DNA of 64,000 bases, from NCBI GenBank assembly GCA_016197225.1, contig JACPWC010000016.1, forward strand, positions 1-64,000. Reading direction: 5' to 3'. The notes under the pieces were generated by a model. It was not told the origin of the DNA. It made no database searches and saw only the letters and a list, made by a program, of their open reading frames with translations. A program made the translations under genes and the position numbers. Positions 21,371 through 25,792 of the stretch are shown piece after piece. Source of the DNA: Chloroflexota bacterium. GTDB taxonomy: Bacteria > Chloroflexota > Anaerolineae > Anaerolineales > VGOW01. Numbering within the stretch: position 1 is the first letter of the stretch; each line of letters opens with the position of its first letter.

Positions 21371-21407
21371 AATCCAAAATCGAAAATCCCAAACCAAAAA
21401 TCAAAAC
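21371..21407. repeat. AATCCAAAATC-type dispersed repeat between the permease genes
   Basis: A/C-rich degenerate repetition of AATCC(C)AAA units in a GC-rich neighbourhood, filling the 36-nt gap between permeases. The same type of sequence is found inside a reading frame at 54787-54822. Confidence 0.6.
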
Positions 21408-22252
21408 TGTCCCACGCCTTCGTTGGCTTTCACCCCCCGCTCCACCCGGTTGAACACGGCAAAGCTGAACAGGGGCGCAATGAACAGGAAGGCCCAGAGC
21501 ACAGCCATATCGAAATACCAATGGCCGAAGAAGAAACCAACGCCGAGCAGGGACGAGCGCACACCGTTGGTGATCCAGGTGGGTGGGAAGAGCCAGGCTA
21601 TAAATTTGACAAACGGCGGCAGAACCGTGATCGGGAAGAAGATGCCCATGAGAAAGCTGACCACCCACTGCATCAATCCCACCAGAGCGTTAGACTCTTT
21701 GACTTTGAGCACCAGCGCCCCAAAGAGAAAGGCAACAGCATACAGCGGGATCAAGCCGACAAAGATAAAAGCCAGCGCCAGCAGAACATCGCCCTGAAAC
21801 GGGTTGACCCGGAACACCAGGCAACCGATGATGTACGAAAGAAAAGCCGCAATCAGCCCGCGAATGACGCTGTAGATCGCCACGCCGCTGGCCAGGGTCA
21901 GGCTGGAGGTGGGCGTGAGGTACACCGCCTCCAGCGTGCCCGTCTCCTGCTCGAAGCGCAACCAGTAAGCGATGTGCCAGAAAGCGTTGGAGACCAGGGT
22001 GAAGATGTTGGAGCCGATGAGCAGAAAGGCGACGTAGTTCGTCGTGCCGGTGTTGGCGGCAAAGTTCGCGCCGGCGTCGGCCCCGGCGGTGGCCCGCCCC
22101 AGCAACATGGGCATCGAGGCAAAGATCACCGGGATGACGATCTCCAGCGCCAGTTGGCCCGGATAGCGGCTGATGTTGATCATGCGCAAACGCGTCTCAG
22201 CCAGCACGGCTGAAAGTTTTTGGGCAAAGGTGGGTTTGATAACGATTGTCAT
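21401..22252 (-). CDS. ABC-2 type transporter permease
   Basis: 283 aa, six helices. Begins with a cytosolic amphipathic helix (AVLAETRLRMINISRYPGQL) and contains the coupling region YWLRFEQETGTLEAVYLTPTS, homologous in position to EQKQGTLEQLYLSP of the partner. The first extracytoplasmic loop is Gly/Ala/Asn-rich. It lies between the ATPase (6 nt gap) and the second permease (36 nt). Confidence 0.92.
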   Translation of the reverse strand: MTIVIKPTFAQKLSAVLAETRLRMINISRYPGQLALEIVIPVIFASMPMLLGRATAGADAGANFAANTGTTNYVAFLLIGSNIFTLVSNAFWHIAYWLRFEQETGTLEAVYLTPTSSLTLASGVAIYSVIRGLIAAFLSYIIGCLVFRVNPFQGDVLLALAFIFVGLIPLYAVAFLFGALVLKVKESNALVGLMQWVVSFLMGIFFPITVLPPFVKFIAWLFPPTWITNGVRSSLLGVGFFFGHWYFDMAVLWAFLFIAPLFSFAVFNRVERGVKANEGVGQF

Positions 22253-22258
22253 GGCAAC

Positions 22259-23263
22259 CTATTTCACTCGCGTATCATCGGCCAGTGTGCGCCCGGTGCG
22301 GGCAATAAATACGTCTTCGAGCGTCACCTCTTCGGGCGTGATCTTTTGCATGACGGCATTGTGCGCGATGAGCGTTTCGATGAGACGCGGCAGGAGCGCC
22401 TGATGATCATGAGCCACGACGGTGAGTTGGGCATGGCCGTTTACCGGGGTGGTCGCCGCCTGACTGACGCCGGGGAGAGCGCCAACGGCCTGGCTGGCTT
22501 TGGTCGGAATCACACCCTCGATCCGAATGACCATGTCGCGGTTCAGCGAGGCCTTGAGTTCCGGCACCGTGCCCAGAGCCAGCACCTCGCCCCGATCAAT
22601 GATAGCCACCCGGTCGCACATCGTCTCGGCTTCCGACATGATGTGCGTGGTGTAGATCACCGTCTTGCCTTCCTGGTTGAGTTCACGGACGACGGCTCGT
22701 AGTTCGCGGGCTGAGGGCAGGTCAAGGGTGTTGGTCGGCTCGTCCAAAATCAACAGCGGCGCATCGTTGATCAAGGCCTTGGCAAAGGCCAGCTTCATTT
22801 TCTGGCCGGACGAATACGTCTCCACCGAACGGTCGGCAATGTCGCCCAGACTCAGGCGCTCAATAATTTGATCGGTGCGGCGGCGGCGCTCGGCGGGGCT
22901 GAGGTGATACAACGCGCCAAAAAAGATCATGTTCTCGCGCCCGGTCAACTTCCAATACAGGCCGCGCTCGCCCATCAACATGCACCCCACCGTCGCCCGG
23001 ATCGGGTTGTCGTCTTTGGTCAACTGAAACCCGTTGATCCACGCCTCGCCCGAAGTTGGCAGGAGGAGCGTCGTCAGGCATTTGATCAGGGTGGTCTTGC
23101 CCGCGCCGTTCGGGCCGAGCAGGCCAAAAATTTCGCCGGGCTTGATCTCCAGCGAAATGTCCTTGAGCGCCTCCACCAGTTTTTCTTCCGATTTGAAGAG
23201 GCCTTTGCGCTGGCGCGTTTGATACGTCTTCGCCAGTTTTTTGATGATGACTTGACCCTGCAT
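22259..23263 (-). CDS. ABC transporter ATP-binding protein
   Basis: 334 aa. Walker A GPNGAGKTT, Q-loop at GCMLMGERGLYWKLTGRENM, signature YSSGQKMKLAFAKAL, Walker B LLILDEPTNTLDL and H-loop TTHIMSEAE. The C-terminal ~90-residue extension is typical of DrrA/NatA-type exporters of drugs, Na+ or lipids. It powers the two ABC-2 permeases downstream. It directly follows the DUF4097-like gene (9 nt), so the transporter and the putative sensor are made together. Confidence 0.95.
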   Translation of the reverse strand: MQGQVIIKKLAKTYQTRQRKGLFKSEEKLVEALKDISLEIKPGEIFGLLGPNGAGKTTLIKCLTTLLLPTSGEAWINGFQLTKDDNPIRATVGCMLMGERGLYWKLTGRENMIFFGALYHLSPAERRRRTDQIIERLSLGDIADRSVETYSSGQKMKLAFAKALINDAPLLILDEPTNTLDLPSARELRAVVRELNQEGKTVIYTTHIMSEAETMCDRVAIIDRGEVLALGTVPELKASLNRDMVIRIEGVIPTKASQAVGALPGVSQAATTPVNGHAQLTVVAHDHQALLPRLIETLIAHNAVMQKITPEEVTLEDVFIARTGRTLADDTRVK

Positions 23264-23272
23264 TTTGATCTC

Positions 23273-24613
23273 CTATCTCCCCTCAATCGCCGCCAACAAC
23301 TTCTCGGCTTCGGCCACCGTAATCTTGCCCTGCTCCACCATTTTCAGGATGGACATTCGCTCCTCGTCGCTGACGGGTTCAACCGGCGGCACGGGTGGCC
23401 TGGGCGGCACTGGCGGTTTAGGGGCCAGAGGCCGCGTAAAATCAAACCGCCACGTGGACGACGAACTCCGTTTGGAGCGATCGGCGGCGTGGGTAGCATG
23501 AGCGGCGTGGCGCTCGGCCTTGCGCTCGGCGCGTTCGCGCGCCGCCTCCGCCCGGCGCTCGGCGGCCTCGGCCAACGACTTGGCTCGTCGTTCAGCCGCC
23601 TCGGCCCGGCGGCGAGCCGAGTCTGAAACGCGCTCGGCGGCCCGGCGGGCGCGGGCGGCGATCTCGTCGGCGTTCACCCGGCTGGCGCCCATCGTGATAT
23701 CCAACCCGGCCAGGCGGTCCGTCAGTTGCTTCTCGAAATCGGCCATTTGCGATTCGATCTGGGCTTCAATTTGCGCCGACAACTCTTCGGCCATCACATC
23801 GGCCATCATGCCAAATTCTTCGCCAAAGCGGTCGCCAACTTCTCCCATCACATCAGAACCCGAGGCAATATCAGACAGCGAAACGTCGCCGCCGGCCCGC
23901 AAATTGACTTTGGCCGCGCCATTGCCAGCCGTCACCATCTTGTTCCGGGAGTTGCCTTCGACCGTCGCGCCAAACACGTCCACGGCAATATCGCCGCCGC
24001 TCAGAATGTTGAATGAGGCTGAGGTGTTCGACGGCGCGCGGCAGATGATGTCTGACCCTGACTGGAAATGATATTCCTGGCCGGGCGCAAAATTGAGGCT
24101 GAGAATAATGTCGGAACCGACGACGGCCCGCGCAGCAGCGTGGGCGTCGCGCAGGTAAAGGTCGCCGCCCACTTGGTCGGCGGCAAACGCGCCCGCCACC
24201 CCTCGCGCCGACACATCGCCGCCCACAATTTTCAACACCAGTGAGCCGCGAATTTTCTTGGCGCTCACGTCGCCATCCACCTGCCCGGCTTCCACCGAGG
24301 CCACCTGGCGCAACACCAGATCGCCGCTCACGTGATCGAATCGCAAGTTGCCCTCAATCGCCTTGATCCGGGCGTCGCCGGCCACGTGCGCAACCTTGAT
24401 CACAGCGCGGCGCGGGACGCGGATGGCGCAATCGGAAAGGCAGGTCACTCGAATCTCGCCGTTCTTCTGCTCGGCGGTCAACATCTTCCGGTCATCTGTC
24501 TCGGCATAAAATTCGTTTTGCTCCCAGCCCGACAGGCGCAAATCGCCGGCGATGGAGTCAATCACAATTTCGGGTGCCTCACCGGTCGTGAGGGTGATCT
24601 GTTCGGTGTTCAT
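23273..24613 (-). CDS. DUF4097-like beta-strand protein with charged coiled coil and C-terminal SHOCT-like module
   Basis: 446 aa, no signal peptide. Residues about 1-265 are short repeated strands (GDLRLSGWEQN, GDARIKAIEGN, GDLVLRQVASV, GDVSAKKIRGS, GGDVSARGVAG, GGDLYLRDAHA) like the DUF4097 putative-adhesin beta-solenoid of YvlB/LiaX. About 265-385 is an Ala/Glu/Arg-rich coiled coil, followed by a Pro-rich stretch. The last ~30 residues are the SHOCT-like module (EERMSILKMVEQGKITVAEA, EKLLAAIEGR). In YvlB/LiaX the module is N-terminal; here it is C-terminal. LiaX senses peptide antibiotics, so a sensor role is a fair inference. Confidence 0.85.
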   Translation of the reverse strand: MNTEQITLTTGEAPEIVIDSIAGDLRLSGWEQNEFYAETDDRKMLTAEQKNGEIRVTCLSDCAIRVPRRAVIKVAHVAGDARIKAIEGNLRFDHVSGDLVLRQVASVEAGQVDGDVSAKKIRGSLVLKIVGGDVSARGVAGAFAADQVGGDLYLRDAHAAARAVVGSDIILSLNFAPGQEYHFQSGSDIICRAPSNTSASFNILSGGDIAVDVFGATVEGNSRNKMVTAGNGAAKVNLRAGGDVSLSDIASGSDVMGEVGDRFGEEFGMMADVMAEELSAQIEAQIESQMADFEKQLTDRLAGLDITMGASRVNADEIAARARRAAERVSDSARRRAEAAERRAKSLAEAAERRAEAARERAERKAERHAAHATHAADRSKRSSSSTWRFDFTRPLAPKPPVPPRPPVPPVEPVSDEERMSILKMVEQGKITVAEAEKLLAAIEGR

Positions 24614-24616
24614 AGA

Positions 24617-24976
24617 TCAGTCCACAAAGATTTCGACGTGTTCGCCGCTTTCAAAATCCTCAACATCCACCAGCCGCCCGCCCGTGCCAGCCTGGAGTTG
24701 CTCGATAATCTCGCGCAAGTCCAGCCCGGCAATTTGCGGCTCGTACCTGGCCCCAATCTTCAGCCCGGCATCCACCAGCGAGAGCGGCAGGTTGACGCTG
24801 ACTTTTTGCTTGCCGGTGTCCAGGTCGGTAACGCGAACGTGAAACCAGCGGTTGGCGGCCAGGGCGTCAAAAGAAGCGGGCGAAGCCGGCGGCTGATTTA
24901 AAAGCCGGGCCGCCTCGTCGGCAGAAATCTGGCCGGAGGCCAGTTGTTCAAGGATGTGGGAACGTTCAAGGTTCAT
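24617..24976 (-). CDS. SHOCT-like module protein (paralog 3 of 3)
   Basis: 119 aa from the ATG at 24976. Residues 3-28 are the SHOCT-like module (LERSHILEQLASGQISADEA, ARLLNQ) and about 43-119 the second conserved block (RWFHVRVTDLDTGKQKVSVN, LVDAGLKIGARYEP, acidic SGEHVEIFVD end). Closest in layout to the protein at 19466. Cytoplasmic, no membrane segment. 3 nt upstream of the DUF4097-like gene. Confidence 0.85.
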   Translation of the reverse strand: MNLERSHILEQLASGQISADEAARLLNQPPASPASFDALAANRWFHVRVTDLDTGKQKVSVNLPLSLVDAGLKIGARYEPQIAGLDLREIIEQLQAGTGGRLVDVEDFESGEHVEIFVD

Positions 24977-24989
24977 AGGGAAGTCCTCG

Positions 24990-25373
24990 TCAGCCGCCCT
25001 GCAGGAGTTTGACGGCATCTTCAGAAGTAATTCGACCGCTGGAGAGATCGTCAAGAATCTGGCGGCGTTCACCATCGCTGATCCCGGTCGGGGCCGCCTC
25101 TTCCTGCCCCACCTCAAAGCCCATGGCCCGGATCAGTTCATTCAACCGGCCCCGCAGGGTGGGATAAGACAGGCCCATTTCTTTTTCCATCCGGTTGAGC
25201 TTGCCTTCACAGCGAATGAACGTTTCGGCGAAGGCAATCTGCTCCGGGTTGAGACGGTCGAGGGCGCTCACGGCAAAGCGGCCTTCAATAGTCGTGTCAC
25301 AGCTTCGGCAATGCAGGCGGGTGACGTTGAGCATCTCGCCACACACCGGGCAGGTTCCAATAATTGGATGCAT
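24990..25373 (-). CDS. DUF2089 family protein (zinc ribbon, HTH-like core, SHOCT-like tail)
   Basis: 127 aa. N-terminal CPVCGE...CRSC zinc ribbon, then a helical core ending in an HTH-like stretch (FIRCEGKLNRMEKEMGLSYP, TLRGRLNELI), then the C-terminal SHOCT-like module (DGERRQILDDLSSGRITSED, AVKLLQ). The HTH-like core suggests DNA binding, which would make it the candidate regulator of this operon; that is inference. Start at 25373 removes a poorly conserved extension. Second gene of the operon, 13 nt from the next. Confidence 0.88.
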   Translation of the reverse strand: MHPIIGTCPVCGEMLNVTRLHCRSCDTTIEGRFAVSALDRLNPEQIAFAETFIRCEGKLNRMEKEMGLSYPTLRGRLNELIRAMGFEVGQEEAAPTGISDGERRQILDDLSSGRITSEDAVKLLQGG

Positions 25374-25387
25374 CGTTCCCCCGCCGG

Positions 25388-25564
25388 CTACCAGGCCCAC
25401 CAGGCAAGAAGGCCAAGCAGAATAACGGTTGAGGCGATCAACACCTCTCGAACTCGGGGGTAGCCGCCTTTGAAACCCTCAAGCAATTGGGTATGACGAC
25501 CCTCTTCCAGCAATTCTTCGCGCCGGGAGTTGGTATAAAGTTCAAGTTTCTGAAAGTCATCCAT
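25388..25564 (-). CDS. small tail-anchored membrane protein
   Basis: 58 aa. A highly charged amphipathic N-terminal part (DDFQKLELYTNSRREELLEE) and a C-terminal hydrophobic helix (VLIASTVILLGLLAWWAW), so a tail anchor with a cytoplasmic head. Excellent ribosome binding site AGGAGGAACCC. First gene after the operon promoter; small membrane proteins often lead stress-sensing operons, but its function is unknown. Confidence 0.8.
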   Translation of the reverse strand: MDDFQKLELYTNSRREELLEEGRHTQLLEGFKGGYPRVREVLIASTVILLGLLAWWAW

Positions 25565-25612
25565 GGGTTCCTCCTGATAGAACAAATGCCCGAAAATTCG
25601 GACACGAGATGC

Positions 25613-25661
25613 TTATTTATATCTATTTCCCTTTTCTTGACTCATTATAAGATATAAATAA
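25613..25661. promoter_or_regulatory. 12-bp inverted repeat flanking the -10 box (candidate operator)
   Basis: TTATTTATATCT at 25613-25624 and its exact reverse complement at 25650-25661, 25 nt apart. The upstream arm lies inside the -35/-10 spacer and the other at about +20 of the transcript, so a protein bound to both would block RNA polymerase. Confidence 0.55.
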
Positions 25662-25671
25662 ATTTTGTCAA
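25644..25671 (-). promoter_or_regulatory. consensus sigma70 promoter of the SHOCT/ABC operon
   Basis: Minus-strand -35 TTGACA (25666-25671) and -10 TATAAT (25644-25649), both perfect, separated by 16 bp in an AT-rich island of an otherwise GC-rich region. It lies about 80 nt upstream of the first ATG (25564). Such a strong promoter would be expected to need repression. Confidence 0.8.
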
Positions 25672-25754
25672 TAACTTTTTCAATTTTCTTGATTAAAAAA
25701 TCAATTTTATTTATTTCGCTCTTTGACTTTTCAAAATTATGTTTTTATGTAACG

Positions 25755-25792
25755 AAAAAGCGGGCTTCTGTCTCGTCAGAAGTCCGCTTTTT
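25755..25792 (-). terminator. intrinsic terminator after mreB
   Basis: 16-bp stem with one G-T pair (25755-25770 with 25777-25792), 6-nt loop, T5 on the minus strand, 22 nt downstream of the mreB-like stop. Confidence 0.85.

Follow-up and report, generated by a model that had tools for sequence, protein, structure and literature searches.

Putative tandem operators with a 21-bp period at the promoter of a DUF2089 operon in a Chloroflexota bacterium

Our analysis of a 64,000-nucleotide stretch of Chloroflexota DNA (the window) indicates that the promoter of a DUF2089 operon carries a candidate tandem operator array. The array would belong to an autoregulated regulon, is most likely bound by DUF2089 and most likely represses; we give this reading a probability of roughly 0.6. 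The original prediction had singled out the same promoter together with a 12-bp inverted repeat. The promoter is real, the repeat that was highlighted appears to be the wrong one, and the conserved element was found a few bases away. The features of the region are as follows.

25,700–25,713, minus strand: block Z, putative third copy of the element, TAAATAAAATTGAT, offsets -42 to -29 from the -35 hexamer, 21 bp upstream of block A
25,679–25,692, minus strand: block A, putative copy, TCAAGAAAATTGAA, offsets -21 to -8, 21 bp upstream of block B
25,658–25,671, minus strand: block B, putative copy, TTGACAAAATTTAT, offsets 0 to +13; T+9 and A+12 are conserved in relatives
25,650–25,661, minus strand: arm 1 of the inverted repeat, TTATTTATATCT, exact, within the spacer
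25,613–25,624, plus strand: arm 2 of the inverted repeat, TTATTTATATCT, exact, at about +14 to +25 for a transcription start near 25,637
25,586–25,605, minus strand: leader hairpin of 8 bp, directly before an AGGAGG ribosome site
25,388–25,564, minus strand: gene 1, small protein with a single hydrophobic segment at the C-terminus, start codon ATG at 25,564
24,990–25,373, minus strand: gene 2, DUF2089 (zinc ribbon-HTH and a putative C-terminal SHOCT), candidate regulator
24,617–24,976, minus strand: gene 3, SHOCT-like protein (match at 4e-6, just under the cut-off)
23,273–24,613, minus strand: gene 4, Toastrack-like protein with a C-terminal SHOCT over the cut-off
22,259–23,263, minus strand: gene 5, ABC ATPase (ABC_tran), DrrA-like (drrA 256 bits, cut-off 312)
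21,401–22,252, minus strand: gene 6, ABC-2 permease (ABC2_membrane)

The perfect TTGACA-16 bp-TATAAT pair that had been claimed is present on the minus strand from 25,671 to 25,644. Its -35 hexamer, TTGACA (25,666–25,671), is also the first half of the operator-like block B, and a 16-bp spacer separates it from the -10 hexamer, TATAAT (25,644–25,649). It is the only perfect TTGACA/TATAAT pair in the window, where shuffles give an expectation of 0.01. The promoter island is AT-rich and lies between the end of an mreB gene, which has a terminator-like hairpin at 25,765–25,782, and a run of minus-strand genes. The six genes listed above are separated by gaps of 3–14 bp, as calculated from their coordinates, and a single operon is therefore plausible. 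The promoter is of the sigma-70 type, is conserved and stands at the head of this operon. Control of the SHOCT/ABC operon from this promoter was thus upheld as far as position and conservation are concerned, whereas the inverted repeat as its operator was not. In the leader, the hairpin at 25,586–25,605 is terminator-like by pattern. Fold stability of the leader showed no overall excess over shuffles (z -0.30), and Rfam matches were all sub-threshold and on the opposite strand, so that an RNA element in the leader was rejected.

Both SHOCT-like and ABC transporter genes stand alongside DUF2089 in the window. Family searches gave no match for gene 1, and its homologue in the same-genus genome G004 is 34% identical and in the same position. 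A small leading protein of approximately 60–66 amino acids is common in such operons, being seen in the window (25,388–25,564) and as the first ORFs of L046, L240 and L241; in L240 the similar-looking small protein precedes an apparent ABC importer operon. Gene 4 had no direct DUF4097 match, and its homologue in L246 (32% identical) matches DUF4097 at 3.2e-4, below the cut-off.

DUF2089 is present in 42 of 61 near relatives and in 255 of the 300 genomes searched in the order, and the comparison set consisted of 116 loci with 150 bp or more of upstream DNA. Allowing up to two mismatches, a promoter was found at 91 of them, 78 with a 16-bp spacer, against 34 of 658 control genes (800 kb of same-order genomes), nine with a 16-bp spacer. 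Outside the hexamers the conserved letters are A/C at -1, T-12 with A-9, A+6, and T+9 with A+12; the control promoters (n = 34) showed no conserved non-hexamer positions. T-12, A-9, T+9 and A+12 occur together in 42/91 DUF2089 promoters and 1/34 controls (flank shuffles: mean 2.1, maximum 8 in 1000), although the data used to pick these four positions were also those in which they were counted. Therefore, a flank-only matrix was trained on 31 promoters of one family (f11) and tested on 55 promoters from 12 other families. In the held-out families it reached an AUC of 0.89 against the promoters' own shuffles and 0.76 against controls. The flanks of the window promoter outscore 99.9% of their own shuffles, and an equal score is reached by one of the 34 controls.

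The conserved letters are arranged periodically. When the -35 hexamer was excluded, the top direct-repeat offset in 77 promoters was 21 bp, with a score of 49.9 compared with a maximum of 47.1 in 2000 column permutations. Offsets of 30 and 9 bp were also seen, which would be expected if each 21-bp unit has two sub-elements 9 bp apart. As 21 bp corresponds to two helical turns, the copies would lie on one face of the helix. In the window, block B matches the element poorly at its right-hand end (TTTAT). The pair T-33 and A-30, which marks block Z, is found in 44 of the 91 promoters (shuffles: mean 13.0, maximum 25), a count from data overlapping those in which the site was first seen. A TATTGA-N5-TCAATA palindrome was considered as operator and rejected, since only some of the loci match it within 0–2 mismatches and the 21-bp direct repeat fits better.

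We built a sequence-only model, R1, from 60 promoters, leaving the window promoter out. In the genome of the window, R1 ranked the window promoter best (22.8 bits, E 5.1e-4), the next match had 11.0 bits, and no second strong site was found; the claim for this genome is therefore confined to the operon, with no regulon shown there. At E<=0.002, R1 matched in 157 of 251 genomes, eight of which are outside the DUF2089-positive list. No promoter was found within 600 bp at 25 of the 116 DUF2089 loci, and four promoter-less genomes (G134, G137, G152 and G184) have an R1 match 1.4–1.8 kb upstream. Outside the order, R1 gave just three matches over 22 loci, the best at 11.5 bits. The B-element pattern TTGACW-N3-4-TYNAR was found there at 6/22 loci (shuffles mean 0.04) and, given TTGACW, at 6/18 (shuffles mean 0.8, maximum 5). 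Conservation of a TTnAA-type motif beyond the order thus appears partial only. Look-alike words are also seen upstream of DUF2089 in Bacillota and on a Legionella plasmid, in DNA too AT-rich to judge, and these loci were left out of the evidence.

The company of the R1 sites points to exporters. Forty hits were hand-picked, most of them at a distance from the listed DUF2089 genes. Seven are DUF2089 operons, among them four DUF2089-SHOCT-MFS and one MFS-DUF2089-Toastrack. MFS genes adjoin 19 of the 40 hits, and 14 of the 33 without DUF2089, compared with 2 of the 692 control ORFs; the three pumps tested belong to MFS_1, and one of them scores 281 bits as Mef-like, well short of the family cut-off of 675. 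An R1 site precedes a Toastrack-like gene in L215 and L178, a SHOCT gene in L191, a LiaF-TM gene in L226 and ABC genes in L221, with ABC genes lying farther downstream in L219 and L234. Altogether 26 of the 40 hits, including the seven DUF2089 operons, have targets of the exporter/SHOCT/Toastrack/LiaF-TM type. The other 14 look unrelated (L207, L208, L218, L224, L225, L228, L230, L231, L232, L236, L237, L240, L242 and L245). A similar gene, the first large one in L207, recurs in L219 and L234; in these three loci, which come from genomes of family f8, we take the gene following the motif to be DNA-3-methyladenine-glycosylase-like, and an ABC ATPase lies farther down in two of the genomes. In L208 and L228, approximately 300 bp from the match-strand start, the motif precedes an AAA/FtsK-like ATPase gene. 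This arrangement occurs in two species of one genus (G257 and G191), the G257 site is among the best R1 matches (31.9 bits), and the ATPase does not fit the exporter theme.

Block Z lies outside R1, and the sequences of the 26 targets were not used in finding it. Its pair T-33 and A-30 is present in 11 of these 26 promoters (shuffle mean 3.2; none of 2000 shuffles reached 11) and in 2 of the other 14, a number reached by 725 of 2000 shuffles. R1 matched at E<=0.002 in 2/20 genomes without DUF2089 and 13/20 with it, a contrast that is partly circular because some DUF2089 genomes supplied R1 training sequences. Exporter/SHOCT/Toastrack-type genes stood beside none of 13 R1 hits in DUF2089-lacking genomes and beside 3 of 11 examined hits away from DUF2089 promoters in DUF2089-containing genomes, the hit scores of the two sets being unmatched.

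DUF2089 had been proposed as the regulator because it is the second gene of the operon and has a zinc ribbon and an HTH-like core, and Pfam confirmed this description. The DUF2089-HTH domain (PF09862) scored 74.4 bits (cut-off 33.4, 5.5e-21) and the zinc ribbon (PF22747) 55.1 bits (cut-off 27.6, 7.9e-15), and SHOCT (PF22746) on the C-terminus reached 21 bits, below its cut-off of 27. In 50 DUF2089 sequences C9, C12, C23 and C26 are invariant, as are the HTH residues S70, Y71, T73 and R75. The structure model (mean pLDDT 87.6, pTM 0.50) has a zinc-ribbon-like start, a tri-helical HTH with helices at 44–55, 60–67 and 71–84, a loose linker and two C-terminal helices at 101–113 and 118–125. DUF2089 is thus a good candidate. 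The best Foldseek matches of its HTH were PucR-type regulators, sigma region 4 and LuxR/NarL-type domains, which are likewise tri-helical and superpose over approximately 49–55 residues at about 1.8–2.5 Å rmsd. None of these matches was significant (best E 0.61), nor did they show sequence kinship. A sequence search of solved structures returned one chance-looking match only. The gene most often found behind the site encodes an HTH protein, which fits autoregulation, and the site covers the -35 hexamer and the early spacer, which suggests repression.

We propose that the operon is transcribed from a sigma-70-type promoter with tandem operators, in which an element of about 14 bp of the TTGA-N5-TTnAA type would recur every 21 bp. 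One copy would contain the -35 hexamer, one would cover the UP region and one would lie farther upstream. The regulon would comprise the DUF2089 operon and, in relatives, separate SHOCT, Toastrack, LiaF-TM, MFS and ABC exporter genes. DUF2089 most likely binds the array via its HTH and, on the proximal copy, most likely keeps both its own operon and the exporters repressed; it is possible that the array activates instead. The C-terminal SHOCT helices would tie DUF2089 to SHOCT/Toastrack proteins, and membrane damage or a toxic compound would lift the repression. Such a partner role and signal would be in line with PMC11237479, which describes this gene neighbourhood and puts forward a role in membrane stress.

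The inverted repeat might instead be the operator, with half-sites 37 bp apart (in the spacer and near +20) that a dimer binds or a tetramer loops, shutting the promoter. The repeat is as perfect as originally described, with one arm in the spacer, one downstream of the -10, a gap of 25 bp between them, and the promoter at its centre. When the 175-bp island was shuffled 200 times with its dinucleotides preserved, a perfect inverted repeat of at least 12 bp with a gap of up to 60 arose once. In DNA this AT-rich such a repeat is unusual, yet the figure is not decisive for a feature chosen after inspection. A search for the 12-mer at other operons, which had been suggested, yielded no exact copy in the 4.8-Mb genome beyond the two arms. 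Allowing one mismatch gave six matches including both arms, compared with five for a reversed control pattern, and the surroundings of the four one-mismatch copies showed no link to this operon. The 12-mer was therefore rejected as the operator of a regulon. The original prediction named loss of the repeat in relatives that keep the promoter as evidence against it, and this is the case in G004, which retains TTGACA-N16-TATAAT but not the repeat; G004 is the one same-genus genome that holds the promoter region, the G002 contig beginning inside DUF2089 and G001 and G003 yielding no DUF2089. The repeat is also missing from L009, whose DUF2089 is 77% identical, and a DNA search of five same-family genomes found no relative of this stretch other than itself. 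Among the 91 DUF2089 promoters, a 12-bp inverted repeat between promoter and leader is present in two, the window and the unrelated L033, with differing sequences. Cross-promoter repeat lengths follow shuffles except in the window (locus L018, 12 bp), L033 (12 bp) and L007 (10 bp), so that inverted repeats as a general feature of these promoters were rejected. We regard the repeat as a very improbable operator. Four bases of its spacer arm fall within block B, and the case is one in which a striking inverted repeat misleads and comparison finds the right element a few bases off.

It is also conceivable, although unlikely, that the array is a real operator of another regulator encoded elsewhere and that the DUF2089 operon is merely one of its targets. 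The motif does stand before exporter genes away from DUF2089, and the eight R1-positive genomes outside the DUF2089 list agree with such a regulator. On the other hand, the hits examined in DUF2089-lacking genomes lie beside unrelated genes, the DUF2089 gene is the most constant target, as autoregulation predicts, and the HTH region is strongly conserved, including its four invariant residues. Less probable still, the region would be no more than a strong promoter in AT-rich DNA with an UP element, and the letters in common would come from base composition and from what RNA polymerase prefers. In favour of this, DUF2089 promoters are rich in AT and close to consensus, and the intergenic stretch of the window has approximately 30% GC. 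However, composition-preserving flank shuffles abolish the signal, it is missing from the 34 ordinary promoters taken from this group, and neither the 21-bp period nor the gathering of hits at exporter genes fits base composition. The tandem array bound by DUF2089 remains our preferred reading.

Exporter repressors of the TetR, MarR and MerR families are autoregulated HTH proteins whose operator lies over the promoter and which control their own operon and drug pumps. DUF2089 differs from them in its zinc ribbon and SHOCT and in up to three operator-like copies 21 bp apart. DUF2089 genes also occur in leaderless-bacteriocin clusters, for which we know of no operator. On a Staphylococcus epidermidis plasmid (L280, 1,920–8,011) a short DUF2089 gene faces PH-domain genes, and the locus adjoins an aureocin A53-like bacteriocin and an ABC exporter. 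On a Legionella adelaidensis plasmid (L281, 1,621–3,863) DUF2089 comes immediately after an SbmA/BacA-like peptide transporter gene, another pairing of DUF2089 with a transporter. The DUF2089 proteins of leaderless-bacteriocin clusters include BawC (PMC10707071) and ORF C of the enterocin DD14 locus (PMC7332713). Their clusters place DUF2089 beside ABC exporter and immunity genes, an apparent likeness to the window; the proteins are shorter (89–98 amino acids) and from Bacillota. The function of ddC, which from gene order would be ORF C of the enterocin DD14 locus, is called unknown in a 2026 paper (PMC13262744), and our reading, if true, offers a role for DUF2089 genes of this kind. A broader view is that DUF2089 proteins are membrane-linked transcription factors whose operator has three copies in 21-bp phase and whose regulon combines SHOCT/Toastrack sensors with MFS Mef-like and DrrA-like ABC exporters; this would explain the leaderless-bacteriocin DUF2089 genes too. 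We advance this wider view tentatively, at a little under even odds.

The closest described systems are the Toastrack/DUF2089 operons of PMC11237479, presented there as PSP-like membrane-stress modules with a suggested transcriptional output. In them a zinc ribbon-HTH-SHOCT DUF2089 protein is encoded next to genes of the SHOCT-like, Toastrack, LiaF-TM and ABC kinds; the window shares the SHOCT-like and ABC genes and has a Toastrack-like one. Our findings differ from that account in the DNA site and its tandem build, in having MFS/Mef-like pumps as targets and in the regulon members that stand apart; the words MFS, operator and efflux are absent from its main text. No DNA site for DUF2089 was found in the accessible parts of PMC11237479, PMC7332713, PMC10434189, PMC10707071 and PMC13262744, and among the matches listed for Chloroflexi/Anaerolineae regulon literature no title concerned the motif. 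If the reading is true, a little-studied bacterial order gains a drug-exporter and envelope-stress regulon. What began as a curiosity of one genome becomes a testable prediction of where the widespread DUF2089 binds, with what geometry and which genes it controls. The likely control element, a tandem operator array of a DUF2089 regulon, is new in its details and ordinary in principle.
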